NCBI GenBank assembly: GCA_900320045.1
Contig: ONQT01000021.1
Span: 1-63,322, forward strand
Direction of reading: 5' to 3'
Length of the DNA: 63,322 nucleotides
From: an uncultured Prevotellaceae bacterium
GTDB lineage: Bacteria > Bacteroidota > Bacteroidia > Bacteroidales > Bacteroidaceae
Part shown: one piece after another, positions 1,144 to 60,820 of the stretch
How the letters are laid out: each line of letters begins with the position of its first letter
How positions within the stretch are numbered: position 1 is the stretch's first letter
Made by a program: the position numbers and the translations under genes
The notes under the pieces: generated by a model
The model's database searches: none
Told to the model about the DNA's origin: nothing
Seen by the model: only the letters and a program-made list of their open reading frames with translations

Positions 1144-1288
1144 AGCATTTTTCTCCCCAGCAACAACATCTTACGACAAAAAATGCTATTTTTCTATCAA
1201 AACATCGGATTTTGTCGGAAAACATTAAATTTTAGGGGAAAAGTCGTACAAAATTCCCATAATTTTCTTGTGTTAATCATTTTTTTTA

Positions 1289-1296
1289 TACATTTG
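1289..1296 (+). promoter_or_regulatory. -7 promoter box for the desulfidase-like gene
   Basis: TACATTTG fits TAnnTTTG and is followed by a leader of about 60 nt. The leader carries a small CGTC/GACG stem around 1331-1343. The rest of the 1120-1360 intergenic region is AT-rich, and I see no gene in it. Confidence 0.55.
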
Positions 1297-1360
1297 CAAG
1301 GTAAAAACGCTATAACTTAAAACAACCCTCGTCGATTTGACGACTCGCTGACGATTGTTT

Positions 1361-2674
1361 ATGATAGAAAAAGAGCTACGTGAACGCATTATCGCGATGG
1401 TGCATCGCGAGGTGGTACCGGCCATTGGGTGCACGGAACCCATGTGTGTCGCCTTGTGTACGGCAAAGGCTACCGAGAAGTTAGGACGCCGCCCCGAGAA
1501 GATTGAGGCTTTGCTGAGTGCCAACATCCTGAAGAACGCTATGGGTGTGGGTATTCCGGGAACAGGCATGCTGGGCCTGCCCATCGCCATCGCCCTGGGC
1601 GCCATCATCGGCAAGAGCGAGTATCAGTTGGAGGTGCTCAAGGACCTGACGCCCGAGACCCTCGAAGAGGGTAAGCAGTATATCGCCGAGAACCGCATCG
1701 TCATCAAGCAGAAGGAAGGCATCAGCGAGAAGTTGTATGTGGAAATCGTCTGTACTGCAGGCGACAAGAAGGCTTCGGCCGTGATAGCAGGAGGGCATAC
1801 AAGGTTTGTGGAAGAAGGCCTCACCCCTAACCCCTCTCCAAGGGGCGAGGGGAACCTTGAGGGCGAGGGGAATGGATACCAAGGGGAATCGGGGGATGAA
1901 GTTCCTCTGAATCTGAGGCTGGTGTATGACTTTGCTATGACGGCGCCCCTTGATGAGATAAGATTTATAGAGGATGCCCGTACCTATAATATGAATGCGG
2001 CCCGCGAGGCGCTGAAGGGCAACTACGGCCACAACCTCGGAAAGAGCATCGAGCGTCCGCTGGCAAAGGGCATCTTCGGCGACAGCATCTACAGTCACAT
2101 CATCTCCCGGACGGCATCGGCCTGCGATGCACGCATGGGCGGTGCCATGATTCCCGTGATGTCGAACAGCGGCAGCGGCAATCAGGGCATCTGTGCCACC
2201 AATCCCGTCTGTGTCTACGCCAAGGAGAACGACAATACCGAGGAGGAGCTGATCCGTGCCCTGATGCTCAGTCACCTGACGGCCATCTACATCAAGCAGT
2301 CGCTCGGCAAGCTGTCGGCACTCTGCGGTTGCGTGGTGGCGAGCATCGGCAGCAGTTGCGGCATCACCTATCTGATGGGAGGCGACTACAGCCGCATCAG
2401 TGCCTCTGTGAAGAACATGATAGCCAACTTGACGGGCATGATTTGCGACGGTGCCAAGCCGTCGTGCGCGCTGAAGATTACCTCGGGTGTCTCCACCGCC
2501 TTGCTGTCGGCCCTGCTGGCAATGGAGGGCAAGTGCGTCACGTCGTCGGAAGGCATCGTTGACGATGATGTGGACAAGAGCATCCACAACCTGACGAGTA
2601 TCGGCGCAGACGCCATGTGCAAGACCGACGACATGATACTGAACATCATGACGACCAAGGAAACCGTGTGTTAA
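1361..2674 (+). CDS. UPF0597 / L-cysteine desulfidase-like protein with a repeat insertion
   Basis: The protein (437 residues from ATG 1361) belongs to the serine-dehydratase-alpha-like UPF0597 family. Characterised members break L-cysteine down to pyruvate, sulfide and ammonia using an iron-sulfur cluster. Family motifs seen are PAIGCTEP near the N-terminus, KNAMGVGIPGTGM, SGSGNQGI, CGCVVASIGSSCG and ICDGAKPSCALK. The cysteines in the last motifs are the likely cluster ligands. Between the N- and C-terminal halves (about residues 148-185) the family sequence is interrupted in frame by a low-complexity stretch containing LTPNPSPRGEG, encoded by an interspersed repeat. A TTG lies 6 nt upstream, but ATG 1361 fits the family start. 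All catalytic motifs lie outside the insert, so activity may be kept. Confidence 0.85.
   Translation: MIEKELRERIIAMVHREVVPAIGCTEPMCVALCTAKATEKLGRRPEKIEALLSANILKNAMGVGIPGTGMLGLPIAIALGAIIGKSEYQLEVLKDLTPETLEEGKQYIAENRIVIKQKEGISEKLYVEIVCTAGDKKASAVIAGGHTRFVEEGLTPNPSPRGEGNLEGEGNGYQGESGDEVPLNLRLVYDFAMTAPLDEIRFIEDARTYNMNAAREALKGNYGHNLGKSIERPLAKGIFGDSIYSHIISRTASACDARMGGAMIPVMSNSGSGNQGICATNPVCVYAKENDNTEEELIRALMLSHLTAIYIKQSLGKLSALCGCVVASIGSSCGITYLMGGDYSRISASVKNMIANLTGMICDGAKPSCALKITSGVSTALLSALLAMEGKCVTSSEGIVDDDVDKSIHNLTSIGADAMCKTDDMILNIMTTKETVC
1818..1876 (+). repeat. Interspersed CCCCTCTCC/GGCGAGGGG element inside a gene
   Basis: The core at 1831-1852 is an imperfect palindrome, CCCCTCTCC - AAG - GGCGAGGGG, preceded by CTCACCCCTAA. 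A partial second copy (GGGCGAGGGGAATGG) follows at 1861-1875. It is read in frame as LTPNPSPRGEG. From memory, this is a common interspersed repeat of Bacteroidetes, usually found between genes. Confidence 0.7.
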
Positions 2675-2720: not shown

Positions 2721-4868
2721 ATGAGTGATATCCGTGAAAGCATGCATAAGCTGAGGAAAAATCTGAACCTCACGGTCATCGTGTCGGCAGTATTGCTGCT
2801 GGAGCTGATGATGGGTTTCATGTTCTATTCCGCCCAGAACTTCATCCAGCGAACGATGGAGCGAATGGTGAATGTGGAGATGAACGCCATCTACCTTTGT
2901 ATCCGCAACAAGCTGATGAAGGCCGAGGTGACCATCGACAACATGTCGTGGGTGGTGGGCGAAGCGCTGAACGAGCCTGATTGGATGTTCGACATCACGC
3001 GGAGAATCGTGAAGAACAACACCTTGTTCTGGGGTAGCGGCATTGCCTTTGCCCCCAACTACTATCCGGCCAAAGGACAATACTTCGAACCCTATTCGGC
3101 GCGCCGGGGTGGCGACACCATCGTGTCGATACAGGTGGCAAAAGAGCAGGGGAAATATCTCGAGAAGGAGTATTACCAGGCTCCTCTGGCTACCGGCAAG
3201 TCGCTTTGGACCGAGCCGTACGCCGACCATGTGGAAATCAACGGCATGACGACAACCTACAGCGCTCCTGTCCGTGATGCGTCCAAGCGCATCGTCGGTG
3301 TCATCTTCGCCGATATCCCCCTCCGCATCCTGGAAGACATCATGAACGAGGAGAAAGTCTATCAGTCCACCCAGCGTTTTCTGGTAACGGGCGAATACAA
3401 CCTGCTGGCGGGCAAGAACTCTCCGCTGTTCAGAGAGGTGCTGCCACTGCTGGAAAAAGACAAGGACAAGGAAGACTACTTCATGATGAAGAGCAAGGAT
3501 GGTCATGAGTATCATATCTTCTACACGCCTGTGGGCGGAAATACCGACTGGGTGCTCATCAATGTGTTGGACGACAACGAAGTCTTCGGCCGACTGCGCA
3601 TGATGCGCATGATGTTGATGCTGCCTGTTGTCCTGGGTCTCGTCTTTGCCGGACTGATTGTGTGGCGTTCTTCGAAGAACCTGAAGAGGCTGAAGAAGGT
3701 GAATGCCGAGAAGGAACGCATCGACGGCGAGCTGCGCGTGGCCAGTGAGATACAGCAGAGCATGCTGCCACAAGGCGAGCTGCGCGTCGAGGGCCTGGAG
3801 CTGAAGGGAATGCTGAAACCCGCCCGTCAGGTCGGCGGCGACCTCTATGACTACTATATCCGCGACGAGAAGCTGTTCTTCTGCATCGGCGACGTCAGCG
3901 GCAAGGGAGCGGCAGCAGCCATGCTGATGGGGGTCATACACTCGCTGTTCCGTTCGGCCTCGGCCCACGAGAACAACCCCGCCCACGTGATGCAGACCAT
4001 CAACGAGACGTCGTGCCAGAACAACGAGTCCAACATGTTCGTGACGCTCTTCATCGGAGTGCTCGACCTGCCTACGGGTCTGCTCCGCTATTGCGATGCA
4101 GGTCACGACGCTCCCTTCGTGCTGCACGGCACCACATCGATGCTCCTCCCCGTCAAGCCCCATCTGCCCGTGGGTGTCTTTGAGGACATGAAGTACGACG
4201 TGCAGACGGCCACCATCCAGCCCGACAGTACCATCTTCCTCTATACCGACGGACTGACGGAGGCCAAGAATACCGCGCGTAAGCAGTTTGGCATCGAGCG
4301 GGTCAAGGACCTGATGGAAGGTTTCGTCAATGAGTCGCCCCAGGAGATGCTGGAAAAGATTGTCGCTGCCGTCGAACGCTTTGTGAAGCAAGCCGAGCAG
4401 AGCGACGACCTGACGATGCTGGCTGTCCGCTATGTCCCCGTGCAGTTTGAGAGCACGCTGTCCAGGGAGCTGACCATCAAGAACGACGTGCACGAGGTGG
4501 CGGAGTTCAGCCGCTTCATCAAGTCCGTCAACGAGGAACTGGGTCTGGAGACGTCGCTCGCCCGACAAATCCGTCTGGCTGTCGAGGAAGCGGTGGTCAA
4601 CGTCATCGACTACGCCTATCCGGAAGGTGTCGAGGGCGACATCACCGTGCAGGTGCTGTCGGACGGCCGTGTGATGCATGTCAAGATTATCGACAGCGGT
4701 GTGCCCTTTGACCCCACGGAGATACAGAAGGCCGACACGACGCTCTCTGCCGAGGACCGCAGAATCGGCGGACTGGGTATTCTGCTGGTTCGTGAGCAGA
4801 TGGACAGTATCAACTACGAGCGTACGGACGGAAAGAATGTACTGACACTGATGAAGAAACTTAAATAA
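2721..4868 (+). CDS. Membrane SpoIIE/PP2C phosphatase with sensor and HATPase domains
   Basis: This 715-residue protein has a transmembrane helix at about 17-38, an extracytoplasmic cache-like sensor region at about 40-290, and a second helix at about 295-316. A PP2C/SpoIIE phosphatase domain follows at about 340-575. It shows VGGDLYDYY near 371, DVSGKGAAAAM near 391, LYTDGLTEA near 507 and SDDLTML near 561, which carry the metal-binding aspartates. The C-terminus is an RsbW-like ATPase domain at about 585-715, with an N box EEAVVNVIDYAYP near 621, DSGVPFDP near 658 and GGLGILLVREQMD near 683. Such proteins dephosphorylate (and can rephosphorylate) a STAS antagonist protein, and exactly such a protein is encoded 27 nt downstream. 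So one membrane protein appears to hold both the phosphatase and the anti-sigma-kinase-like activity. Confidence 0.9.
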   Translation: MSDIRESMHKLRKNLNLTVIVSAVLLLELMMGFMFYSAQNFIQRTMERMVNVEMNAIYLCIRNKLMKAEVTIDNMSWVVGEALNEPDWMFDITRRIVKNNTLFWGSGIAFAPNYYPAKGQYFEPYSARRGGDTIVSIQVAKEQGKYLEKEYYQAPLATGKSLWTEPYADHVEINGMTTTYSAPVRDASKRIVGVIFADIPLRILEDIMNEEKVYQSTQRFLVTGEYNLLAGKNSPLFREVLPLLEKDKDKEDYFMMKSKDGHEYHIFYTPVGGNTDWVLINVLDDNEVFGRLRMMRMMLMLPVVLGLVFAGLIVWRSSKNLKRLKKVNAEKERIDGELRVASEIQQSMLPQGELRVEGLELKGMLKPARQVGGDLYDYYIRDEKLFFCIGDVSGKGAAAAMLMGVIHSLFRSASAHENNPAHVMQTINETSCQNNESNMFVTLFIGVLDLPTGLLRYCDAGHDAPFVLHGTTSMLLPVKPHLPVGVFEDMKYDVQTATIQPDSTIFLYTDGLTEAKNTARKQFGIERVKDLMEGFVNESPQEMLEKIVAAVERFVKQAEQSDDLTMLAVRYVPVQFESTLSRELTIKNDVHEVAEFSRFIKSVNEELGLETSLARQIRLAVEEAVVNVIDYAYPEGVEGDITVQVLSDGRVMHVKIIDSGVPFDPTEIQKADTTLSAEDRRIGGLGILLVREQMDSINYERTDGKNVLTLMKKLK

Positions 4869-4895
4869 CAAATAACCAAAAAACATTTAAACATT

Positions 4896-5198
4896 ATGAA
4901 TGCAAAAATCGAAGAACTTGACGGCAAGTTTATTGCCACATTAGAGGGAGAAATGGACACTGCAGCAGCTGTGGAGGTAGAAACCGTGCTGAAACCACTC
5001 TACACGAGTAACGGCAAGGATGTCATCATTGACTGCAAGGACCTGGAGTATATTGCTTCCAGCGGCCTGCGTATCCTGCTCGGCATTCTCAAGGGTGCTA
5101 AGGCATCGGGAAGCAAGGTGACGCTGCGCGACGTGAACGACGACATCAAGAGCGTGCTCCAGCTCACCGGATTTATCAGTATTTTTGAGTTCGAATGA
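4896..5198 (+). CDS. STAS-domain anti-sigma-factor-antagonist-like protein
   Basis: This 100-residue single STAS domain has the phospho-switch loop YIASSGLRILL at about residues 50-60. A serine there would be the phosphorylation site controlled by the upstream kinase/phosphatase. In partner-switching systems the unphosphorylated STAS protein binds the ATPase domain. The stop codon overlaps the NRPS start (ATGA at 5195-5198), so translation of the two is probably coupled. No sigma factor gene lies nearby; the output of this module is therefore unknown. Confidence 0.88.
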   Translation: MNAKIEELDGKFIATLEGEMDTAAAVEVETVLKPLYTSNGKDVIIDCKDLEYIASSGLRILLGILKGAKASGSKVTLRDVNDDIKSVLQLTGFISIFEFE

Positions 5199-8100
5199 AA
5201 AAGACAGCACCATTATCCAAGACGCAGTACGGCGTCTATGTAGAGTGCGTTCAGCACTTAGGAGAGATTTACTACAACCTGCCTTTCCTGTATGTCCTCG
5301 ACGGCAGTATGGACGAAGCCAAGCTCAAGGCAGCGATAGAGCAGGCCGTGGCTGCCCATCCCACGTTGTTCACACGCATCGCACTGAATGCGCAGGGCGA
5401 ACCCGTGCAGACCATCGACGATAGCGAGACCTTCACGCTGGAGGTGGAGCACATCACCGACATCGAGGCGGAGAAGAAGGGACTGGTAGCGCCGTTCGAC
5501 ATCTATAACGACCGGCTGTTCCGCATCCGACTGATGAAGGACACCCAGCACTTCTACCTCTTCATCGATACGCATCATACCATCAGCGACGGTGCGTCAC
5601 TGAAGGTGTTGCTCAGTGACATCGATGCAGCCTACGGCGGCAAGTCGTTGGAACCGGAGACCGTCACCTTGGCCGATGTGGCCTGCGAGGAAGTCGAGAA
5701 GCGACAGACGGCGGCCTTCGAGGAGGCGAAGCAGTGGTATGCCCAGACCTTCGACTGCAGCGATACCTTCACGCAGCTCATACCCGACCGCGAGGAACCG
5801 TCGTCGGAGATTGGTGTAGTGACGAGAAAGGTCGGGGTCAGCGTGGCAACCGTTGAGGCCTTCCGCGAGCAGTACGGCATCTTCAAGAACACCCTCTTCT
5901 CGGCTGTTTACGGCTTCCTGCTGGCGAAGTACAACAACGAGAAGGAAGCCCTGTTCTGCACGGCCTACAAGGGACGTCAGGACAAGCGACTGGCTCGCAC
6001 GGTGGGCATGTTCGTGAAGACGTTGCCCGTATGGATGAAGTTCACCGACGACACTACGACGCTCGACTTCCTGAAGGCCGGCCAGGAGCAGATATCGGGT
6101 TGTCGGGAGCACGACACCTATACTTTCACCGATGTGATGACCGACCTGAACCTGCAGATGGGTTCCATCTTCTCGTGGCAGGCATCCATCATTGACGATG
6201 TGGAGATAGCCGGCAAAACGGCACAGACCAGTCTGCTGAACCACGCCACACTGAACATACCTTTATATGTACAGGTGGCTGTTCGCGGAGGACATTTCTA
6301 CCTGCAGGCCGAATACAATACGGGTGTCTATTCCGAGATGCTGGTCAGCCAGTTCCTGGAGAGCTACGAGACGGTGCTGGAGGCATTCCTGCAGGGCAGC
6401 CTGCTGCGCGACATCAACATCACTACCGATGCACAGCTGCAGATACTCGACAGCTTCAACCAGACCGACGCGCCCTACGACGACACGCAGACCATCGTCT
6501 CGCTGTTCCGTCAACAAGTGAAGGCAACGCCCGACAACATCGCGGTGGTCTTCAAGGACAAGAAATATACTTATCAAGAGGTGGACGAGCTTTCCGATCG
6601 CATCGCAGCGTATGTCTGTGAAAAGGTAAAAGCGAAAAGTGAGAAATCAGAGCCTGTGGTCTCTGTCCTCATTCCCCGTTGCGAGTGGATGGCGATAGCT
6701 TCGCTCGGTGTGCTGAAGGCCGGCTGTGGCTACCAGCCCCTCGACCCCAGCTATCCGCAGGAGCGCCTGAACTTCATGATGCAGGATGCCGACGCCCAAC
6801 TGCTGATAGCCGATGAGGCGTTGCGCCCGCTGGTCAACGAATACCAGGGCGAGGTGCTGCTGACCAAGGATATCGAGAAACTCCCTGCTCTTACGGAGGA
6901 AGAAGTCTCTCAACTCTCAACTCTCAACTCTCAACTGAAGCCCGACAGGCTGTTCATCATGCTCTACACCTCCGGTTCGACGGGTGTGCCTAAGGGCTGC
7001 CAGCTGACGCACGGCAACTTGGTTTGCTTCTGCAATTGGTATCAGCGCTATTATGACCTCAAGCCCGAGAGCAAGGTGGCTGCATACGCCAGCTATGGCT
7101 TCGACGCCTGCATGATGGATATGTATCCCGCATTGACCTGCGGCGCTTCGGTGTATATCATTCCCGAGGAGCTGCGTCTGGATCTTGTTTCGCTGAACGA
7201 CTACTTCGAGCAGAACAACATCACCCATTCGTTCATGACGACGCAGGTGGGTTATCAGTTTGCCAGCAGCATCGAGAACCACTCGCTGAAGCATCTCTCG
7301 ACAGGTGGTGAGAAGCTGGCTTCCTTGACGCCCCCGACGAACTATCGGTTCCATAACGTCTACGGACCTACCGAGTGTACCATCTTCGTGACCATCTGTC
7401 CCGTAGAAAAGAAGTTAAAGGAGATTCCTATCGGCAAGTCTATTGCGAATGTACATCTCTATATCGTTGATGCGCAAGGCCATCGGGTGCCGGTGGGTGC
7501 TGCCGGCGAGCTGTGGATCAGTGGTCCGCAGGTGGGTCGCGGCTACTTGAACCGTCCCGAGAAAATGGCAGAGGTGTTTATCGACAATCCGTTTGCGTCT
7601 GGCGACTCGAAATATCATCGCGTTTACCGCACTGGCGACATCGTGCGCTATCTGCCCGATGGCAACATCCAGTTCGTAGGACGTCAGGACGGACAGGTGA
7701 AGATTCGCGGCTTCCGCATCGAGCTGAAAGAGGTAGAAACCGTCATTCGCGAGTTCCCGGGTATTAAGGACGCTACCGTGCAGGCCTTCGACGAGGATGG
7801 CGGCGGCAAGTTCATTGCGGCTTACATCGTCAGCGACGAGCAGGTGGACATCGACGCCCTCAACAACTTCATCCTCGACCAGAAACCGCCTTACATGGTT
7901 CCTGCCGTCACGATGCAGATTGACGCCATTCCGCTGAACCAAAACCAGAAGGTGAACAAAAAGGCCCTGCCCAAGCCCGAGAAGAAGGCTGTCGAGATCG
8001 AGGTGGAAAGCAACGTGCCGATGAATGTGCTGGAGAAGGAAATTCACGACATCATCGCCGGCATCATCAATACCGAGGAGTTCGGCGTGACTACCGTATT

Positions 8101-11100
8101 GGGATATGTCGGTCTTACCTCCATCATGGCCATCAAGCTTGCCATCCAGATCAACAAGCGCTTCGGCGTGACGCTCGATTCGAAGGCTCTGGCCAAGACG
8201 GGCAGCGTGCAGAGCATCGAGAACGATATTCTGCAGGCACTGTTGAGCGGAGGCGCTGCCAAGCAGCAGGCTGGCGAGGTGGAGCATGCCGATATGAGTA
8301 ACATACCCTTGTCGTACGCACAGATGGGTGTCTATGTCGACTGTGTGAAACAGCCTGAATCCACCATCTACAACACGCCTGTCATTGCCAAGTTCCCGAA
8401 GGATGTCGACATCGACCTGCTCATCAAGTCGGTGCAGACGCTGGTCAAGACCCATCCGATGCTGCAGGCACACTTCGGAAGTGCCGGCGCCGATATCATA
8501 CAGATTGTCGATGCCGACCAGCCTGTGGAGATTACCCAGAGCAAGCATACGGAGCAGGAAATGCCCAACTACAAGTGGGAGTTCATCAGACCTTTCAACC
8601 TCCGACAAGGTCCGCTCTATCGCATCGAGATTGTCACCACCGAAGAGCACGTCTATCTGATCATGGATATCCATCACCTCGTGGTGGACGGTGGTTCCTT
8701 CGACGTGCTCCTGGCACAGCTGTTCGAGCTGCTCAACGGACAGGAGATTGAGCCCGAGACCTTCACCTATGCCGACTTCGTGGCTGCACAGAAGGCCGCA
8801 GAGAGCAGTGAGGAATATGCCGCTGCCCGCGACTTCTTCCAGACGCGACTGGGCACTGTCGAGGGTGTGACGGAGGTTCCGACAGACCTGACCAATCCGT
8901 TGGATCAGGGTACCGTGGGTACCTTGTACACGCCGTTGGACTTCGAGGCTATCGACGCCTTCTGCCGCCAGCACAACATCTCGCCGGCACATCACATCCT
9001 GGCTGCTACGTTCTATGCACTGTCGCGCTTCACCAACAGCGAGCAGCTCTGCATCACCACCATCAGTAACGGACGTTCCGACCTGCGCATCAGTAATACG
9101 GTGGGTATGTTCGTCAATACGCTGGCGCTGAGTGCCGAGATTGGTGGACAGACGGTACTCGAATTCCTGAACGAGACCAGCAAGAACTTCGACGAGACGC
9201 TGCAGCATGAGTCGTATCCGTTTGCACGCATCGCGGCCGACTACGACCTCTCTGCCGAAATTCTGTTTGCCTATCAGTTGGGCATCTTTGCCGAATACAA
9301 GTACAAAGGTCAGACGGTGGACATCGATACCTTCGAGACGGATACGCCCAAGTTCCGCATCGCCTTCTTCATCCAGAACGACCCTGAGGGCAAGCCGAGC
9401 ATCTGTCTGCAGTACGACAACGGACGCTACAGCCGCGAGCTGATGCAGAGCCTGTCGGAGTCTATCTGCAATGCGGCCAATGCTTTCATCCGTCAGCCCG
9501 AGGCTGCCATCCAGAGCATCTCCCTGCTCGACGACCGGCAAGTCGCCTTGCTGGACAGCTTCAACGATACCGAGGTGCCTTACGACGACACCCAGACCGT
9601 TGTCTCGCTGTTCCGTCGTCAGGTGCAGCTCACGCCGGACAATATGGCTGTGGTCTATCACGAGAACAAATATACCTATCGCGAGGTGGACGACCTGTCG
9701 GAGCGCATTACGACAATGCTCGTCGGACGGGGACTTGGCAAGGAAGACGTCGTGTCGATTATCATTCCTCGCTGCGAGTGGATGCCGATTGCCGCACTGG
9801 GTGTGCTGAAGGCCGGATGTGCCTACCAGCCGCTCGACCCGAGCTATCCGCAGGAGCGCCTGAACTTCATGATCAAGGATGCCGCTGCCAAACTGCTCAT
9901 CGCCGACGAGGCGTTGCGCGACATGGTGAGCGAATACGACGGTGAGGTGCTGCTGACGAAGGACATCAAGCAGTTGCCGGTAGCCACCAAGCCCGTCGAT
10001 GTCAAGCCCGACCCCTCCGACCTGTACATCCTGCTCTATACCTCTGGTTCTACGGGTCTGCCCAAGGGTTGTCAGCTGGAGCACCACAACCTGGCAGCAT
10101 TCTGCCACTGGTATCAGCGGCGCTTCGAACTGAAGGCCGAGCACCATGTGTCGTGCTATGCCAGCTATGGCTTCGACTGCTGTATGATGGACCTCTATCC
10201 GGCATTGACGTGCGGTGCGTGTGTCTATATCATCGGTGACGACATTCGTCTGACGCTGCCGGAGGTGAATGCCTACTTCGAGGAAAACCACATCACCCAC
10301 TCGTTCATGACGACGCAGGTCGCTTATCAGTTTGCTACCAACTACGACAATCACTCGCTGTTGCACCTGATTGCTGCCGGTGAGAAACTGGCATCGCTGG
10401 AGCCCCCGAAGAACTTCAAGCTGCACAACGGCTACGGTCCGACGGAAGGCACCATCCTTATCACGGAGTATGAGGTGGACAAGCTGCTGAAGGATATCCC
10501 TGTCGGCACACCGCTCGACAACTCGCGCCTCTACATCGTCGACAAGCAGTTCAACCGTCTGCCGCAAGGCGCTATGGGCGAACTGTGGATCAGTGGTCCT
10601 CATGTCACCAGAAGCTATCTGAACCGTCCGGAGAAGACCGCCGAGGTGTATATCGACAATCCGTTCTGCAGCGAGAAGAAGTTTGCACGCATCTACCGCA
10701 CCGGCGACATTGTGCGCTATCTGCCCGATGGCAACATCCAGTTCGTCGGACGCAAGGACGGACAGGTGAAGATTCGCGGCTTCCGCATCGAGCTGAAGGA
10801 GGTCGAGGCCGTCATCCGTCAGTATCCTGGCATGAAGGATGTCACCGTACAGGCCTTTGACTACGACAACGGCGGCAAGTACATCGCTGCCTATATCGTC
10901 AGCGACGAGCAGGTAGACATCAAGGATCTCAATGCCTTCATCGGCAAACAGAAGCCGTCGTACATGATTCCTGCCGCCACGATGCAGATTGACGCCATTC
11001 CGCTGAACCAGAACCAGAAGGTGAACAAGAAGGCCCTGCCTGCACCTGTCATCCAGGCTGCCGACCACGAGTACGTGGAGCCTGCCAACGATACTGAGCG

Positions 11101-12511
11101 ACTCTTCTGCAAGGTGTTCAGCGAGGTGCTGTCTATGGACAAGATTGGCGCTACCGACAACTTCTTCGAGCTGGGCGGTACGTCACTCATGGTCACCAAG
11201 GTGATTATCGAGGCCGACAAGGCTGGTCACCATGTGGCCTACGGCGACGTCTTCACCCATCCCTCACCGCGTCTGCTGGCGCAGTTCGTGACGGGCGACA
11301 CGCCTGTGGAGAATACCGACGAGGAAGTTATGGGCTTCGACTACTCAGGCATCGACGCCATCCTGCAGCAGAATAGGGTAGAGACCTTCGTCAAGGGCGA
11401 GCGCCAGCAGCTGGGCAACGTGCTGCTGACCGGTGCTACGGGCTATCTGGGCATCCACGTGCTGCGCGAACTCATCGATACCGACGCTCCGACCATTACG
11501 TGTATGGTGCGCGGTAAAGACCAGCAGGCAGCCGAGCACCGACTGAAGAACCTGTTGTTCTACTACTTCGAGAAGTCGTACAAGGAGCTCTTCGGCACCC
11601 GCATCTTCGTCGTCAACGGCGACGTCACACAAGACCTCACCGCTCTCGGCCTGGATAAGATTGACACCGTCTTCAACTGTGCCGCCAACGTGAAGCACTT
11701 CTCCAAGGGCACGGACATCGAGGACGTCAATATCGGTGGTGCACAGCGCTGTGTGGAGTTCTGTCTGAAGACCGGTGCCCAACTGGTACATGTCTCGACG
11801 ACCTCCATCGGTGAGCTCTGGATTCTCGACGGCACCAGCGACGAGGTACCCAAGCTCGACGAGCGCAAGTTCTGGTTCGGACAGTTCCTCGATAACCGCT
11901 ACATCCACTCCAAGTTCCTCGCTGAGCGACTGGTGCTCGACGCCGTTGCCCATCACGGACTACGGGGTAAGATTATGCGTGTGGGCAACCTCGCACCGCG
12001 CAGCTATGACGGCGAGTTCCAGATTAACTTCAACACCAACAGCTACATGGGACGCCTCAAGGTGTTCTACACGCTGGGCTGCTGCTCGTACGACGACTAC
12101 GACGAACTCACCGAGATGTCGCCTATCGACGAGACCGCAAGGGCCGTGGTGCTGCTCGCCACCACCCCGAAGGAGTGTACCGTCTTCCAACCGTTCAACA
12201 ACCATACGGAGCTCTTCGGAGACATCCTGAAGTTGATGAAGAAGGTGGGTCGCGACATCTGCTTCGTAGAACCCGAAGAGTTCGAGAGGGTGCTTGCTGA
12301 AGTAGGACAAGACCCCGAAAAGGCCAAGTTGCTCTCCGCCATGATGGCCTACCAGGATATGGCTCACGGTCAGAAGACTGCCATCATCGAGCGCGACAAC
12401 CGCTACACCAACGCCGTGCTCTATCGCCTCGGCTTCCACTGGAGCGACACGTCGTGGGACTACGTAGACCGTCTGCTCACCGCCATCAGCGGCTTCGGCT
12501 ATTTCGAGTAA
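5195..12511 (+). CDS. Two-module nonribosomal peptide synthetase, C-A-T-C-A-T-reductase
   Basis: A 2438-residue NRPS. Domains by approximate residue: C1 1-425 (HHTISDG near 127); A1 430-925 (YTSGSTGVPKG near 590, YGPTECT near 723, YRTGDIVRY near 811); T1 945-1020, with the pantetheine serine in GLTSI near 974; C2 1035-1460 (HHLVVDG near 1160); A2 1465-1950 (YTSGSTGLPKG near 1614, YGPTEGT near 1746); T2 1960-2040 (FFELGGTSL near 1990); and a thioester reductase from about 2070 with the Rossmann motif LLTGATGYLG, ending at 2438. Reductase release gives an aldehyde (or alcohol) of a dipeptide, as in the pyrazinone synthetases of A-T-C-A-T-R type. Here an extra N-terminal C domain suggests N-acylation of the first residue or acceptance of an upstream donor. 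Specificity residues read by eye are DAMFSGVIFK (A1) and DCMFIAGILK (A2); I cannot assign substrates. No phosphopantetheinyl transferase, exporter or tailoring gene lies alongside. Confidence 0.95.
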   Translation: MKKTAPLSKTQYGVYVECVQHLGEIYYNLPFLYVLDGSMDEAKLKAAIEQAVAAHPTLFTRIALNAQGEPVQTIDDSETFTLEVEHITDIEAEKKGLVAPFDIYNDRLFRIRLMKDTQHFYLFIDTHHTISDGASLKVLLSDIDAAYGGKSLEPETVTLADVACEEVEKRQTAAFEEAKQWYAQTFDCSDTFTQLIPDREEPSSEIGVVTRKVGVSVATVEAFREQYGIFKNTLFSAVYGFLLAKYNNEKEALFCTAYKGRQDKRLARTVGMFVKTLPVWMKFTDDTTTLDFLKAGQEQISGCREHDTYTFTDVMTDLNLQMGSIFSWQASIIDDVEIAGKTAQTSLLNHATLNIPLYVQVAVRGGHFYLQAEYNTGVYSEMLVSQFLESYETVLEAFLQGSLLRDINITTDAQLQILDSFNQTDAPYDDTQTIVSLFRQQVKATPDNIAVVFKDKKYTYQEVDELSDRIAAYVCEKVKAKSEKSEPVVSVLIPRCEWMAIASLGVLKAGCGYQPLDPSYPQERLNFMMQDADAQLLIADEALRPLVNEYQGEVLLTKDIEKLPALTEEEVSQLSTLNSQLKPDRLFIMLYTSGSTGVPKGCQLTHGNLVCFCNWYQRYYDLKPESKVAAYASYGFDACMMDMYPALTCGASVYIIPEELRLDLVSLNDYFEQNNITHSFMTTQVGYQFASSIENHSLKHLSTGGEKLASLTPPTNYRFHNVYGPTECTIFVTICPVEKKLKEIPIGKSIANVHLYIVDAQGHRVPVGAAGELWISGPQVGRGYLNRPEKMAEVFIDNPFASGDSKYHRVYRTGDIVRYLPDGNIQFVGRQDGQVKIRGFRIELKEVETVIREFPGIKDATVQAFDEDGGGKFIAAYIVSDEQVDIDALNNFILDQKPPYMVPAVTMQIDAIPLNQNQKVNKKALPKPEKKAVEIEVESNVPMNVLEKEIHDIIAGIINTEEFGVTTVLGYVGLTSIMAIKLAIQINKRFGVTLDSKALAKTGSVQSIENDILQALLSGGAAKQQAGEVEHADMSNIPLSYAQMGVYVDCVKQPESTIYNTPVIAKFPKDVDIDLLIKSVQTLVKTHPMLQAHFGSAGADIIQIVDADQPVEITQSKHTEQEMPNYKWEFIRPFNLRQGPLYRIEIVTTEEHVYLIMDIHHLVVDGGSFDVLLAQLFELLNGQEIEPETFTYADFVAAQKAAESSEEYAAARDFFQTRLGTVEGVTEVPTDLTNPLDQGTVGTLYTPLDFEAIDAFCRQHNISPAHHILAATFYALSRFTNSEQLCITTISNGRSDLRISNTVGMFVNTLALSAEIGGQTVLEFLNETSKNFDETLQHESYPFARIAADYDLSAEILFAYQLGIFAEYKYKGQTVDIDTFETDTPKFRIAFFIQNDPEGKPSICLQYDNGRYSRELMQSLSESICNAANAFIRQPEAAIQSISLLDDRQVALLDSFNDTEVPYDDTQTVVSLFRRQVQLTPDNMAVVYHENKYTYREVDDLSERITTMLVGRGLGKEDVVSIIIPRCEWMPIAALGVLKAGCAYQPLDPSYPQERLNFMIKDAAAKLLIADEALRDMVSEYDGEVLLTKDIKQLPVATKPVDVKPDPSDLYILLYTSGSTGLPKGCQLEHHNLAAFCHWYQRRFELKAEHHVSCYASYGFDCCMMDLYPALTCGACVYIIGDDIRLTLPEVNAYFEENHITHSFMTTQVAYQFATNYDNHSLLHLIAAGEKLASLEPPKNFKLHNGYGPTEGTILITEYEVDKLLKDIPVGTPLDNSRLYIVDKQFNRLPQGAMGELWISGPHVTRSYLNRPEKTAEVYIDNPFCSEKKFARIYRTGDIVRYLPDGNIQFVGRKDGQVKIRGFRIELKEVEAVIRQYPGMKDVTVQAFDYDNGGKYIAAYIVSDEQVDIKDLNAFIGKQKPSYMIPAATMQIDAIPLNQNQKVNKKALPAPVIQAADHEYVEPANDTERLFCKVFSEVLSMDKIGATDNFFELGGTSLMVTKVIIEADKAGHHVAYGDVFTHPSPRLLAQFVTGDTPVENTDEEVMGFDYSGIDAILQQNRVETFVKGERQQLGNVLLTGATGYLGIHVLRELIDTDAPTITCMVRGKDQQAAEHRLKNLLFYYFEKSYKELFGTRIFVVNGDVTQDLTALGLDKIDTVFNCAANVKHFSKGTDIEDVNIGGAQRCVEFCLKTGAQLVHVSTTSIGELWILDGTSDEVPKLDERKFWFGQFLDNRYIHSKFLAERLVLDAVAHHGLRGKIMRVGNLAPRSYDGEFQINFNTNSYMGRLKVFYTLGCCSYDDYDELTEMSPIDETARAVVLLATTPKECTVFQPFNNHTELFGDILKLMKKVGRDICFVEPEEFERVLAEVGQDPEKAKLLSAMMAYQDMAHGQKTAIIERDNRYTNAVLYRLGFHWSDTSWDYVDRLLTAISGFGYFE
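6909..6936 (+). repeat. CTCAACT heptamer x4 inside the A1 domain
   Basis: Four perfect tandem copies of CTCAACT occur in the coding region between the N-terminal part of A1 and its YTSGSTG loop, read as SQLSTLNSQL. The matching place in A2 has no such stretch. Another low-complexity patch, encoding VKAKSEKSE at about 6625-6652, lies upstream in A1 and is also absent from A2. Confidence 0.8.
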
Positions 12512-12603: not shown

Positions 12604-14814
12604 TTATTCTGCCAGGGGGTCGAAGGTGCCGAAGGCGCCGCCGCTACTCATCTCCCAACCAACGGTCTGGGGAATCTCCTTGTTGTTCTCCTGAACGTTT
12701 TGTTTGAAGCCCAGGATGTAGTACTTGGGCTTGAAGGTAATCGTCTCGAGGTTCTTGGCAGCGTCCGTCGGGTCGCTGTACTTCTCGACGATGTAGAAGT
12801 TGTTCTGATACCAGGTCTTCAGGTTGGCGGTCTGTGTGGACAGATCGGTGCTGGCATCGTCGAGGTCGACAATGACGTCGCGGGCTGTACCTGCCTTCAG
12901 CAGCGGGTCGGAGTCGTAGGTCGTGCCGCCCTTGCCATAGGTCTTGGCGGTCTGGAACTCGATGCGCTCACGGCGCTGGCCGTTCCACGGTGTGACGCCG
13001 AGCCAGGTGCAAGTGTTGCCGCCCCAACCGGTGAGGGTATAGGTGGCGGGAGTGTTGTCGGGCTTGGTAGCACCACCGTCGAAGAGCATCCAGCGACGCA
13101 TGTCGTAGAAGCGCTTGCCCTCGTAGGCGAACTCCACCTGACGCTCGTAGAGGATGGCACTCATGCAGGCAGCCTGGTTGTCACCGCCCTGGAAGTCGGC
13201 TGTGGTCAGGTTGCGAACACCGGCACGCGAGCGTACCTGGTTCAGATAGCCTAATGCAGCGTCGACATCGTTAGCACCGCAGGCAGCCTCGGCGAGGTTG
13301 AGCAGTACCTCGGCAAAGCGCAGCTCGATGAGCGGTGCTGCGGAGGTCTTGAAGGGCTGGTCGTAGTCGGCCATATAGGTGTACATCTGGGTAGCGCCCT
13401 TGATGCCACCGTCGTCGCTCTTCTTGCGGACGTAGATGCTGCTCTTGCTGGTGAGGAAGTTGTCGGCAGCGCGTGCTGCGTCGGAACCGGTCTTGTCGTC
13501 GCGCTTGGTGTCATCGTCGGTGGTGTACCATACGTAGTTCCACAGCACGTAGTTCTTACCGTTACCGTAAGAGGGGTTGTTGGGATCCTTCTTGGTGGGA
13601 TCGCCGCTATAGGCCCACTTGACGCCGGGGAAGGCGAAGGTGCGGTAGAAGCGTGGGTCGCGGTCTACGAAGGGATAGTTCTTGTCGTAGGTGCCGGAGG
13701 GCTTCAGCCACTTGTAGGTGCCTGTACCGGGAACGATGATACCGTTCTTGTCAGGGAACAGGTTGACGAGTGTGTAGCTGGCAGCCAGTCCGCTACCGGC
13801 AGTGTTCTTGGGACGAACCTTGGCCTCCCAGGGGTTGTTCTGCTGCTCGTCGGACTCGGTCGTGATGCTGTTGTGCAGCGTAACGAAGACGGCCTCAGGG
13901 TTCTTAGTGAGCTGCATGAACTGCAGGGCGAAGTCGCTACCATTCAGATTGTTGGCAGTCTTGAACAAGTCATAACCGCAGCTTCTAATGGTATTCAGGT
14001 CATTCTTCATTTCCTGATAAGCTGATGTCCAGCGGTCTTCACCCTTACGGTTGAAGAGCGGGCTGGCCCACAGCATCAGGGCACGTCCCTTCAGTGCGAG
14101 GGCAGTACCAGCAGTCACGCGTCCCCAGTCACTACCTGACCATCCACCATTGGTGGTGGTAGCAGCCAGCTGACTGGCAGCAGTGTTCAGTTCGTCAAAG
14201 ATGAACTGGAAGCACTCCTTGGTGGAAGAGCGCGGGGTGAAGGTACCTACCTCGGGGTTCTGCACCTCGGTGACGATGGGCACACCACCGTACCACTTCA
14301 CTACGTTGAAGTACATCCAGGCGCGGAAGAAGTGTGCCTGGCCCAAGAGCTCGTCTTTCTGCTGCTGGCTCAAGGTGCTTCCCTCGACACCGGCGATGAA
14401 GTCGTTGATGTTACGGATGCGGCCGTAGGTGGACTGCTGGATATCCGTTACCTTACCCATGAAGAAGTCGGGTACGGCAGTTCCTGTAGCACCACCGGTC
14501 AGCGTGACGTTAGGATTGACAAAGTCGCTCCATTCGCCGGCATACTCTTCAGTAGAGCGGCTGGCCATATCGGGCAGACCGGCGGAGACGCCGGTGAAAC
14601 GCTTGTTACTTTCAGCGCCAGCCATTTCGGTCATCCACGGGAGGCACTGAGCATAGATATCGTTCAGTCGTGCCTTGGCACCACTGTAGTAATTGTACAC
14701 ATCAGTGTTGAGGTTGTCATAGTTCTTCTTGTCCTCCAGGAACTTGTCGCTACAAGCTGACAGGGTCATGACGGACAGGACACCAATGCTCAAATATTTT
14801 ATTACGCTTCTCAT
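12604..14814 (-). CDS. SusD/RagB-family glycan-binding lipoprotein
   Basis: A 736-residue outer-membrane lipoprotein (signal peptide with lipobox LSAC near residue 21) of the RagB/SusD family. It has the typical N-terminal CSDKFLEDKKNYDN start, helical TPR-like segments such as AHFFRAWMYFNVVKWYGGVPIV, and the C-terminal ERQVEFAYEGKRFYDMRRW motif. It binds oligosaccharide at the cell surface and acts as the lid of the SusC barrel. It is longer than many SusD proteins (about 500-650 residues). It lies 36 nt downstream of susC, as the last gene of the operon, and ends at a shared terminator. Confidence 0.93.
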   Translation of the reverse strand: MRSVIKYLSIGVLSVMTLSACSDKFLEDKKNYDNLNTDVYNYYSGAKARLNDIYAQCLPWMTEMAGAESNKRFTGVSAGLPDMASRSTEEYAGEWSDFVNPNVTLTGGATGTAVPDFFMGKVTDIQQSTYGRIRNINDFIAGVEGSTLSQQQKDELLGQAHFFRAWMYFNVVKWYGGVPIVTEVQNPEVGTFTPRSSTKECFQFIFDELNTAASQLAATTTNGGWSGSDWGRVTAGTALALKGRALMLWASPLFNRKGEDRWTSAYQEMKNDLNTIRSCGYDLFKTANNLNGSDFALQFMQLTKNPEAVFVTLHNSITTESDEQQNNPWEAKVRPKNTAGSGLAASYTLVNLFPDKNGIIVPGTGTYKWLKPSGTYDKNYPFVDRDPRFYRTFAFPGVKWAYSGDPTKKDPNNPSYGNGKNYVLWNYVWYTTDDDTKRDDKTGSDAARAADNFLTSKSSIYVRKKSDDGGIKGATQMYTYMADYDQPFKTSAAPLIELRFAEVLLNLAEAACGANDVDAALGYLNQVRSRAGVRNLTTADFQGGDNQAACMSAILYERQVEFAYEGKRFYDMRRWMLFDGGATKPDNTPATYTLTGWGGNTCTWLGVTPWNGQRRERIEFQTAKTYGKGGTTYDSDPLLKAGTARDVIVDLDDASTDLSTQTANLKTWYQNNFYIVEKYSDPTDAAKNLETITFKPKYYILGFKQNVQENNKEIPQTVGWEMSSGGAFGTFDPLAE

Positions 14815-33686: not shown

Positions 33687-33747
33687 CAAAGGTACTAAAT
33701 AATTTTCACTTTTTATTTCTTCATTCCTATTTTATTTAGTACCTTTG
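33687..33747. promoter_or_regulatory. Mirror-image divergent promoters of purH and metH
   Basis: CAAAGGTACTAAATAA (33687-33702) and TTATTTAGTACCTTTG (33732-33747) form a perfect 16-bp inverted repeat with 29 nt between them. Each arm contains a TACCTTTG -7 box pointing outward, to purH (-) and metH (+). Confidence 0.7.
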
Positions 33748-33765
33748 TCGCTGTTTACAAAAAAT

Positions 33766-37326
<3,561 letters not shown>

Positions 37327-56682: not shown

Positions 56683-59600
56683 TTATTTGATTATCAGTTT
56701 CTTGCCATTGACAATATACAGCCCCTTTGTCGGGTGTGCTACACGCTGACCATTCAGGTTAAAGTAGTGCCAGTTGGACGTTGTTTTACTGCTGCTTAGG
56801 CCGATGCCCGTCGTGTCGTCGTTAAAACAGATTGCTAACTCATGGGACGATGCATTTGGCATGAAGATGAAAGCACGATGATTGCCCAATGTCTCGCCAG
56901 TGAACTTGCAGAAAGCAGCCTTGTTCTCAGTAGTCTTGCCCAGGACATATATCTGTCCATCGCCAAGACTCAACGAGCTAACGGGAGTATCTGTAGTAAC
57001 GCCACGCAGTACATTGCTGTTGTATTCAGAGCCCGTAGTCCCCGTAGCATGAAGGACATAGTTGCCTGCATCGCCCTTCAGCACCACCGCAGTAGCCGCA
57101 GGTATCACGCCGTCGGTAATCTCTGTCAGTCTCACCTTGGTGTTTTCGTTAACCATTTCACCCCAGTATGCCTTCAGTGCTGCCGGAATGGTAACAGAGT
57201 AGTCGTTATAGAAAGTGGCATAGCCCACCTCGCTGATAGTGACATTGCGTGCCGTGCCAGTATTGACCGTCGTCGCCGCACTAAGACTGCCATACTCATT
57301 GACAGCCTTCACGCTATAGGCAGAAGAAGCGCCGTCAACATCAAATGTACACTCTGTAGTGAAGCCAACCACCTTCTCAGCATCATCGATGACAACATAG
57401 CAGATAGCATAGTTGGAAGCCTGCCAAGAAAGAGTATTGCCTGCAAAAGCCAACTCCGCAGGAGCATCAACAGGCTCAAAGAACTTACGTGGGTTCCAGT
57501 CGTCATCGCCAGTGGTGACTGCTTCGTAAGTATAGACAGCAGCCTCATCGGCAGTTAGCAAAGCCTTGCGGGTAACGGGATTGCTCTCGCCTGGTTCCAG
57601 TTTGTCGGGATCAACGGTGTAGGTCGTACGGCGATTGTTCAGGTCAACGGGGTCACCGTTAGCATCCATCGTGTTATACTCAGCGAAGAGCTTTGGTGCT
57701 ATATGCCACTCGCTCCATCCCTCAGGGGCGATGGTTGTCTTCAGCGTGGTGTTGATCCACACGGTGAGCGGCTTGTTCTGCCAGGCGCGGCCCAACTTGT
57801 TGGCACCGCCACAGCCATCGATGGTGTTGTTGACCATGACATAGCCCCACTCTGTACCCTCTCTGTGGCTTGGAGCCACGATGACCGTACCCTCGCGAGC
57901 CATGCGGAAGGTGCTGTTCTCTACATAGTTGTTGCCACCACCGTAATAGAAGTCTACGGCGCCCTCGATGAGACAGTTGTTCACATACTGGCGGTCGGTA
58001 GCATTAGGCACGTCGGTGTACCAGGTGTCCTGGAAGGAACGGAACGAGCAGTTGTTGAACGCCTGGCGGTCAGCACGCGAACTCATGGCAAGTCCCATAG
58101 GACCAGCCTGCATCTCAACGCCATAACTGTCGATATACGAGATGTTCTCGGTGTAGAAATCGGTAGGGTTAACCTGCACCACGCTCTGCTTGCCGTAGGT
58201 CTGAGAGGCAGGGTTGTTGGTAGAGTATTCCCAACCGATGTCGTTAGAACCACCATTGTTGATCCAGTAGCTGATGATGGTCTTCTCCCTATCCTGACCG
58301 ATGAGGTGGATGAAAGGCTTGTTCTTCGGGATGACCACCAGTTCTTCATACTCGCCATTCTTGACGAAGATGAGCCATGGAGCGATGCGATTCTCAGGAG
58401 CTGCGTCAATGGCAGCCTGTACTGTAGTGTAGTCGCCCGTACCGTCTTTTGCCACCACGGCATCATAGACACGTTTAGTGGGTTGTGGACGATTCATTGT
58501 GGTGAATATGATGTCAGCACCGGCAAAGGCATTGTCGCTCATATCCTTGATGGCTCCGGCAGGAATGTGCAGCGTGTAAGCCGTATTGTAGCTCAGTCCC
58601 TTATATGCCAGTGTCACCGTCTTGTTGCCATAGACAGGCGTAAGTGCCTGACCATTCAGAGTGATGTTACCCTCACCGGCTTTCACGCGCTCATTGAATG
58701 AGAGCACTACATTGCCGCGGGCAGAAGCAGATGTAGAACCTTCAGCAGGTGATGATGACAGCAGCAGCGGTGCATCATGGTCGTCGCCCGACTGCTGGTC
58801 GGCATAGATGACGATGTCAGCAAGATAGAATCCTTCGGTGCCTGAAGTGACTGCACCCAACAACGGACTGTTGGCATCGCCAATCCAGCGGATATATACA
58901 TTAGTTTGATTCTCAGGCAAGACAGCGTCAAAGGTGAGCCACTCGTTCTTGGTCATGTTCAGTGTGGCGAGGTCGGTATAGTTCTCACCGTCGGCAGACC
59001 ACTGCAGTTTCTGCACTGAATGCACACAGTCGTTGTCGGCAGCTGCCAGTGAGTGAATGCGCACATTGGTATAGCCGCTGGCATTGAACCGAGCCACGTA
59101 GCTGCGAGGATTATTCATGTTGACAAAGTCGGTATAGCGTCGGATGCAGTTGCGTTCCTTGCCGCCGAAGGTGCGTGTAGAACCACCCCATTGGGTGCTA
59201 CTGCCATCGCCGTTATAGATATTCAGCGAACCGGTGTTGTCGGTAATAAAGGCATAGTCGGCTACGCGGTTGCCGCGTGGCTCGCTCTGGGCAAAGTCCC
59301 ACGCCACGATGAAAGGCACCACATCGAAGGTTGCCGTCAGCTCCTTATTGCCATCCATGGTCACGCTACGCTGCAACTCGGCAGAACTGTTTTCCCAGTA
59401 GAGGAAGTTGGTGACGCTGTTAGGCACCACACTGACGGTCACCTCCGTCCCCGTCTCATACACGCCGTTCACTGGCTCTGGTTGCAGGCGTACCGCACCC
59501 CACTTGCCGCCGTCGCCGTCTTTGTTGACGGTGAGAGTATAGGTGTCAATAGCATTGAACACTGCAGTCACCTGCATGTCTGCGTTAATAGCGAAGGTAT

Positions 59601-60765: not shown

Positions 60766-60820
60766 GTTTAACAAACTACTTACTAAAAAAATAAAACTAA
60801 CAATATTATTCTTCTCAATT

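Follow-up and report, generated by a model that had tools for sequence, protein, structure and literature searches.

Partner-switching genes and a nonribosomal peptide synthetase (NRPS) gene stand next to each other in a 63,322-nt contig of an uncultured Prevotellaceae bacterium (ONQT01000021.1; hereafter the window), which is contig C20 of a 75-contig, 2.31 Mb assembly judged 79% complete. Three ORFs on the + strand encode a membrane sensor with fused phosphatase and kinase domains, a single-domain STAS protein and the NRPS (ORF calls and Pfam; Table 1). The linkage of switch and NRPS is real and wide, and extends beyond this one strain. Dozens of genomes, from rumen Prevotella and certain other gut Bacteroidales, have such a sensor and STAS protein in one operon with a peptide-making enzyme, with nothing pointing to the customary sigma-factor target; a switch of this type probably governs the synthesis or the export of a small peptide that is secreted. 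The reading we favour, tentatively, is that a conserved partner-switch cassette carries exchangeable NRPS cargo and would act on export or on the envelope.

The three-gene anatomy proposed by the sequence-only reading, with its 27-nt gap between sensor and STAS and its 4-nt ATGA overlap between STAS and NRPS, was confirmed by the ORFs, by Pfam and by direct reading of the sequence. The named Pfam domains of the three genes have E values from 1e-12 to 1e-146, which excludes a chance assignment of domains. The NRPS carries two Condensation, two AMP-binding and two PP-binding domains and one NAD_binding_4 domain. It had correctly been called a two-module enzyme, with the terminal reductase omitted.

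Linkage of the switch and the NRPS across genomes

The locus set was retrieved by STAS alone, and the NRPS played no part in retrieval. A peptide pattern was matched by 281 stretches, of which 145 encode a STAS relative, and the best 80 by STAS similarity were analysed. These loci (numbered L) are labelled Prevotella, Prevotellaceae, Bacteroidaceae or Bacteroidales, with a few Paludibacteraceae and others, and about 60 of the 80 bear a ruminant or RUG (rumen) label. Condensation (C) plus adenylation (A) domains of an NRPS were found in 64 loci and any NRPS domain in 66, in 65 of which they lie on the STAS strand. The locus feature counts include short remnants, for example of the outer-membrane-type protein in L069 and L079 and of MATE in L128. 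In the 61 well-covered loci, which extend at least 3 kb upstream and at least 8 kb downstream, we counted NRPS C+A domains in 48, a reductase in 46, SpoIIE in 52, HATPase in 55, an outer-membrane-type protein in 33, a MATE exporter in 20 and an SNF symporter in 14.

Co-occurrence was then scored in 199 same-genus genomes (numbered G; the genome of the window was excluded from 200), with cut-offs of at least 61% identity for STAS and at least 45% for the reductase (E about 1e-103). STAS and NRPS-reductase occurred together in 37 genomes, STAS alone in 5, the reductase alone in 6 and neither in 151 (Fisher p 1.8e-28). A stricter reductase cut of at least 52% gave 32, 10, 5 and 152, respectively. 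Some of the 80 loci and some G-genome stretches are the same contigs and the genomes are related, so that p values overstate the association. Eight genomes were scored as reductase-less despite weaker matches (G028, G068, G073, G087, G093, G094, G110, and G120), and G194 was scored as reductase-alone, yet a sensor-STAS pair, with a STAS 39% identical, adjoins its NRPS. Of the 47 STAS loci of at least 61% identity, several of which are on short contigs, 23 have a reductase on their own contig at a distance of no more than 14 kb. Conversely, a STAS gene lies within 14 kb for 23 of the 40 closest reductases and for none of the next 14 (45-60% identity; several on short contigs).

Across the order, STAS matches at E<=1e-25 were found in 9 of 393 genomes, the genome of the window included, and six of the eight others were examined (all except G300 and G570). 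G556, from another family, has a SpoIIE-HATPase fragment at a contig end, a STAS 67-68% identical, an outer-membrane-type protein, a C-A-C-A-T-R NRPS (T, carrier; R, thioester reductase), a MATE exporter and a phosphopantetheinyl transferase. G465, also from another family, has an NRPS, a sensor and a STAS 48% identical. The STAS stretches examined in G514, G485, G428, and G444 gave no NRPS match.

A neighbourhood produced by chance or by the selection of matches is hardly credible. The 80 loci were chosen from 145 as those most similar in STAS, but the retrieval was independent of the NRPS, the genus-wide co-occurrence stands apart from that set, and other families have the linkage too. On these three grounds, strain-specific or chance adjacency was rejected. 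The linkage, which the sequence-only reading had suggested following across genera as a three-gene order, holds in many species and, as NRPS-switch loci, in two other families. That the genes might be adjacent only in this strain did not hold up, and a switch pair lacking NRPS C+A domains does occur elsewhere, in a minority of loci. A search of the literature, limited mainly to open-access papers, returned no description of the switch-NRPS combination; one may exist elsewhere.

Switch residues, gene order and co-divergence

Residues were compared in the window plus 79 STAS proteins (L112 left out) and in the window plus 62 sensors having both SpoIIE and HATPase domains. The metal-binding Asp motifs of SpoIIE are invariant in 63/63 aligned sensors, and the E/N of the N box, the D-x-G of G1, and the G-G-x-G of G2 of the HATPase are likewise kept in 63/63. 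Ser55 and Ser56 are both present in 80/80 aligned STAS proteins. Three features of an RsbU/V/W-type partner switch were found, namely a STAS with a conserved Ser, the boxes of a GHKL-type serine kinase and the SpoIIE/PP2C Asp residues; the residues predicted for catalysis and for phosphorylation are intact. A same-strand SpoIIE match is absent in 9 of the 61 well-covered loci, and a HATPase but no SpoIIE was detected in L076, L080, L094, L095, and L107.

No part of the cassette varies more than the sensor domain, whose mean pairwise identity is 0.37, vs 0.78 for STAS; this suggests that the related sensors may respond to diverse signals. Among solved structures, this domain is closest to dCache chemoreceptor domains, PctA for example. 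In the available part of a rumen survey, dCache_1 domains are treated as autoinducer-2 receptors (PMC9540692).

Gene orders around STAS vary. Within 300 nt after STAS, the nearest searched feature is an outer-membrane-type protein in 39/80 loci and an NRPS in 16/80 (a C domain in 14, an A domain in 2), followed by an SNF symporter in 7, SDH_alpha in 3, a fused MATE in 3 (one a remnant) and a plain MATE in 1; two loci have a searched feature beyond 300 nt and nine have none. The NRPS may follow STAS or precede the sensor (L087, L118, L127, L132, and L198), and the order STAS-outer-membrane protein-MATE-sensor-NRPS was found in L082 and L083. Direct STAS-NRPS coupling is thus one arrangement among several and not a conserved element.

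The label outer-membrane-type is putative. It draws on three observations: two relatives match Alginate_exp, the first above the cut-off and the second below it, the protein begins like a signal peptide, and its C-terminal residue is aromatic. The family profile found no solved relative, and the L101 protein had no Pfam or NCBIfam match.

Co-divergence was measured as the correlation of pairwise distances among loci having both proteins (Mantel, 999 permutations). STAS correlates with the SpoIIE-HATPase core (r 0.67, n=62, p 0.001) and with the outer-membrane-type protein (r 0.53, n=35, p 0.001). No correlation was found between STAS and the first C, first A, last C, last A, or R domain of the NRPS (0.03, 0.05, 0.03, 0.03, and -0.06; n=50-52, all p>0.28), and the NRPS domain pairs tested correlate with each other at r 0.22 to 0.78. 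The outer-membrane-type protein and the R domain show none either (r 0.04, n=23). In the 41 loci having STAS, sensor and NRPS, STAS vs last C gave r 0.10 (p 0.07), the sensor domain vs last C r 0.32 (p 0.001) and SpoIIE vs last C r 0.15 (p 0.012). Because sensor and SpoIIE correlate weakly with last C, switch and NRPS are not fully independent. The switch and the outer-membrane-type protein behave as one unit, beneath which the NRPS has largely been exchanged; a slight tie between NRPS and sensor remains.

These data bear on the proposal that STAS gates the activity or assembly of the NRPS by binding to it, the 4-nt overlap setting the stoichiometry. The ATGA overlap of the window, overlaps in L107 and L113 (by the ORF starts called here), the 16 loci with an NRPS shortly after STAS and the sensor-last C correlation are in its favour. 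Against it, the outer-membrane-type protein is more often the next gene, and the lack of correlation between STAS and any tested NRPS domain (|r| <= 0.10) is evidence against a binding surface dedicated to STAS and the NRPS. Moreover, STAS remains 80-84% identical over unlike NRPS first modules, as in L066, L075, and L108, whose first C and first A domains are only 26-30% and 46-50% identical to those of the window. We consider direct contact very unlikely. The sequence-only reading had offered two functions, STAS control of the NRPS or the small molecule as output of an envelope-sensing circuit. The linkage, the intact switch residues and the failure to find a SigB/F/G-type factor in the 79%-complete genome agree with this reading in part, the missing co-divergence goes against STAS acting on the NRPS through their coupling, and the pathway as output of an envelope circuit is favoured over control by contact.

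It is also conceivable, though distinctly unlikely, that the cassette regulates the outer-membrane-type protein and thereby envelope permeability, with the NRPS a frequent but incidental passenger of the island. The position of this protein after STAS, its co-divergence with STAS and the NRPS-less pairs (e.g., L094, L095, L099, L114, L120, L124, and L133) fit such a role. However, NRPS linkage is commoner (64/80 vs 40/80) and persists where the outer-membrane protein is missing, as in the window.

Candidate targets of the STAS protein

Under the export or envelope reading, the periplasmic dCache domain would bind an extracellular small molecule, and the fused phosphatase and kinase would set the phosphorylation of STAS at Ser55/56. 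STAS would then bind or leave an RsbW-like domain other than an anti-sigma factor. The likeliest target would lie on the export or envelope side, above all a MATE exporter with a C-terminal RsbW-like domain, which occurs in some clusters and, in this genome, elsewhere. The NRPS may be regulated as operon cargo and via export of its product rather than by direct contact with STAS.

A MATE with a C-terminal HATPase_c_2 domain was identified in clusters L084, L116, L138, and L142, by Pfam in the first two and by similarity and motifs in the others. In G223, the fusion follows STAS by about 20 nt (match coordinates). Full-length matches to the fusion occur in at least 30 of the 200 genus genomes, the own one included; the list is a lower bound, as at most 6 candidates were scored per genome and the partial matches of G213, G220, and G125 were excluded. 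Of the fusions inspected, 11/11 have the N-box and G1 patterns and 9/11 the G2 pattern (L138 and L182 are identical). All 29 other listed fusion genomes have a STAS match (E<=1e-10), vs 119/199 overall (p 1.2e-7). The logic of the fusion suggests a link between exporter and STAS. The genome of the window itself encodes such a MATE fused to an RsbW-like HATPase_c_2 domain on contig C58 (L171, 7963-9741, - strand; 37% identity).

Several observations weigh against this assignment. The fusion was found in only 4/80 loci, plain MATE being commoner (MATE of either kind, 24/80), and the operon in the window has neither a MATE nor an outer-membrane-type protein. Cluster-type STAS was present in 12 of the 29 fusion genomes, a weak association (p 0.007), and STAS and MATE show no co-divergence (r 0.06, n=19). 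The correlations of the sensor domain and SpoIIE with last C count against a fully exchangeable cargo. Of the well-covered STAS loci, 13/61 lack NRPS C+A domains (L064 among them has a reductase piece), and NRPS orthologues occur in G027, G008, G009, G217, and G122 with no STAS in the stretches examined. The loci labelled as strains tc2-28 (L094) and ne3005 (L121) likewise gave no NRPS match in the stretches examined. Finally, the true target could be an RpoD-type factor, an extracytoplasmic function (ECF) factor or a different HATPase protein.

The main rival is a classical switch whose output would be a sigma factor (RpoD-type or ECF) that is encoded away from the operon and transcribes it. 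The STAS and HATPase proteins match the RsbV/RsbW and SpoIIAA/SpoIIAB NCBIfam models, with scores below the equivalog cut-offs, and sigma-70 region 3 is present in two proteins of the 79%-complete genome. The best NCBIfam models of these two are RpoD (270 bits) and the RpoD/SigA family (252 bits), both below curated cut-offs. On the SigB/F/G model TIGR02980, they score 115 and 117 bits against a cut-off of 234. The NCBIfam 'SigB' model NF005920, which describes an actinobacterial, primary-like factor, was also considered and rejected (222-235 bits, cut-off 464). No SigB/F/G-type factor, the cognate output of such switches, was found in the assembly at its 79% completeness, with ECF factors outside the search. 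G003, G004, G010, and G016, which have no STAS match, likewise have two region-3 proteins, the range in 40 genomes being 0-4 per genome. Because of the low model scores and the equal region-3 count without STAS, a dedicated SigB-type target is unlikely. The sequence-only reading noted no sigma factor nearby, and nothing contradicted it: none was seen near the switch among the scanned ORFs of the window (Pfam on 14 window proteins; part of the ORFs of the 63 kb).

Promoter patterns also bear on a sigma output. A loose form of the Bacteroidetes-type pattern precedes the sensor gene in 24/58 related loci (against a mean of 0.79 and a maximum of 4 over 200 block shuffles) and the operon in the window, and this is a housekeeping-type pattern. 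A stricter TTTG pattern had no match in the window. Taken together, we regard a sigma-factor output as unlikely, and return to RsbW-like domains on other proteins as the preferred kind of target.

A related cassette lies on contig C26 of the genome of the window: a HATPase-STAS-RelA/SpoT synthetase arrangement (L054, 7197-9030, - strand) in which the STAS and RelA genes overlap by 4 nt. The RelA/SpoT-like protein of another such cassette, L201, has relatives at 74 places in 68/200 genus genomes. STAS lies directly upstream at at least 44 of them (43 genomes), at 40 within 61 nt; the STAS list used for this pairing reaches E about 9e-23, and the remaining 30 places have no STAS among the matches listed. 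In L199, L200, and L201, a sensor-SpoIIE-HATPase gene lies 5' of STAS. It is possible, if rather doubtful, that Bacteroidales use a sigma-free wiring in which STAS serves as a diffusible phospho-signal docking on RsbW-like domains attached to or beside effectors (MATE, RelA/SpoT, NRPS clusters). An envelope sensor would then directly control peptide-aldehyde secretion and, in the sister cassette, alarmone synthesis.

The same assembly holds ten SpoIIE-domain matches in 2.3 Mb. On contig C72, a SulP permease with a STAS domain is followed by a SpoIIE phosphatase gene (L052, 1380-5220), and on C60 SpoIIE, HATPase, STAS, and a histidine-kinase-like HATPase_c lie consecutively (L051, 586-4449, - strand).

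Locus anatomy, product and known systems

Table 1. Features of the switch-NRPS operon in the window (positions in nt)
Feature	Position	Strand	Basis
Bacteroidetes-type promoter-like site, loose pattern TTG-N18-22-TAnnTTTG, 5' of SDH_alpha gene	1268..1296	+	pattern scan
SDH_alpha protein, putative operon gene 1	1355..2674	+	Pfam
Membrane sensor, 715 aa: periplasmic PDC/dCache, SpoIIE (PP2C) phosphatase, RsbW-like HATPase_c_2 kinase	2721..4868	+	Pfam
PDC/dCache sensor domain (MCP-like_PDC_1/dCache_1), residues 91-279	2991..3557	+	Pfam
SpoIIE phosphatase domain	3864..4433	+	Pfam
HATPase_c_2 (RsbW-like) domain	4482..4856	+	Pfam
STAS single-domain protein, 100 aa, anti-sigma-factor-antagonist superfamily	4896..5198	+	Pfam
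Ser55-Ser56 of STAS, expected phosphorylation site	5058..5063	+	analogy with SypA/RsbV
ATGA stop/start overlap, STAS/NRPS	5195..5198	+	read directly in sequence
NRPS C-A-T-C-A-T-R, 2438 aa	5195..12511	+	Pfam
Terminal thioester reductase (NAD_binding_4), predicted aldehyde or alcohol release	11426..12145	+	Pfam; release chemistry predicted

The operon probably starts at the SDH_alpha gene, because this gene ends 46 nt upstream of the sensor on the same strand and a promoter-like site lies ahead of it. Its product is presumably of the cysteine-desulfidase kind; NCBIfam gave no match and did not confirm the label. In L073, L081, L100, and L152, an SDH_alpha relative lies within or next to the cluster, and L063 has remnants of one. 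A convergent 736-aa ORF (12604-14814, - strand), which reads like a SusD-type lipoprotein from the appearance of its sequence, ends the operon. Farther along, the window encodes a B12-dependent methionine synthase (33745-37326) and a large pectinesterase-domain protein with InlB-like repeats (56683-60774).

The NRPS consists of C-A-T modules ending in a thioester reductase, the pattern of reductive release. The order C-A-C-A-R was scored in 48 of the 53 NRPSs of the locus set (carrier domains were outside the scoring), and the first A domain is nearest to linear gramicidin synthetase A. Related rumen Bacteroidales NRPS clusters are predicted to make short peptide aldehydes. A second NRPS of the genome, on contig C24, is a one-module C-A-T-R enzyme of 1468 aa (L050, 9253-13659), and no switch genes were matched within the 19.9 kb examined around it. 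The available part of a survey of rumen biosynthetic gene clusters reports 934 NRPS clusters in Bacteroidaceae, lists Prevotella NRPSs among the clusters more expressed in less feed-efficient steers and makes no mention of this switch (PMC8241843). Gut NRPS clusters described elsewhere (ruminopeptin, pyrazinone-forming) yield dipeptide aldehydes, again with no partner switch mentioned in the available part of the source (PMC12327764). The present family differs from these in belonging to Bacteroidales and in having a regulatory cassette, its product being predicted.

Among described systems, SypE/SypA, a non-canonical, STAS-only switch, comes closest in logic. In Vibrio fischeri, SypE acts as dual serine kinase and phosphatase on the STAS protein SypA, with biofilm, a biosynthetic trait, as output via an unknown target, according to the available part of PMC8256260. 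The architecture here is the same, kinase and phosphatase within one protein and a STAS with a conserved Ser, and a non-sigma output is predicted. SypE is a response-regulator protein, whereas a dCache protein of the membrane does the sensing here and the pathway linked to it is that of an NRPS. The same source gives type III secretion and the gene-transfer agent as outputs of BtrU/V/W (Bordetella) and RbaV/W (Rhodobacter), and names no linked biosynthetic enzyme for them in the part available (PMC8256260).

Three domain families are shared with RsbU/RsbV/RsbW and SpoIIE/SpoIIAA/SpoIIAB of Bacillus. Those are separate proteins that release SigB or SigF, whereas no SigB/F-type factor was found in the 79%-complete genome here. 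The crystal chain 3ke6 of Rv1364c of Mycobacterium tuberculosis matches the sensor-family profile over phosphatase and kinase. Rv1364c carries its own PAS and STAS domains, whereas STAS here is a separate gene adjoining the NRPS. Weak matches of the STAS protein in the window include solved MlaB chains (E about 0.001); MlaB, of MlaFEDB, is a STAS protein bound to an ABC transporter, with no kinase or phosphatase. Stressosome modules rsbRSTX without sigB and rsbU/V/W have been reported, Bacteroidetes included, in the available part of PMC9237108; they consist of RsbR/S/T/X proteins, in contrast to the SpoIIE-HATPase sensor and single STAS described here.

If the favoured reading is true, the unknown target of non-canonical STAS switches would have a candidate, an RsbW-like domain within an exporter, and the naturally fused gene pairs make this exporter-target question testable. 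Prevotella is a dominant rumen genus, and peptide aldehydes are a class known for protease inhibition. The cassette would then provide a handle on the timing of predicted peptide-aldehyde secretion by rumen Prevotella.

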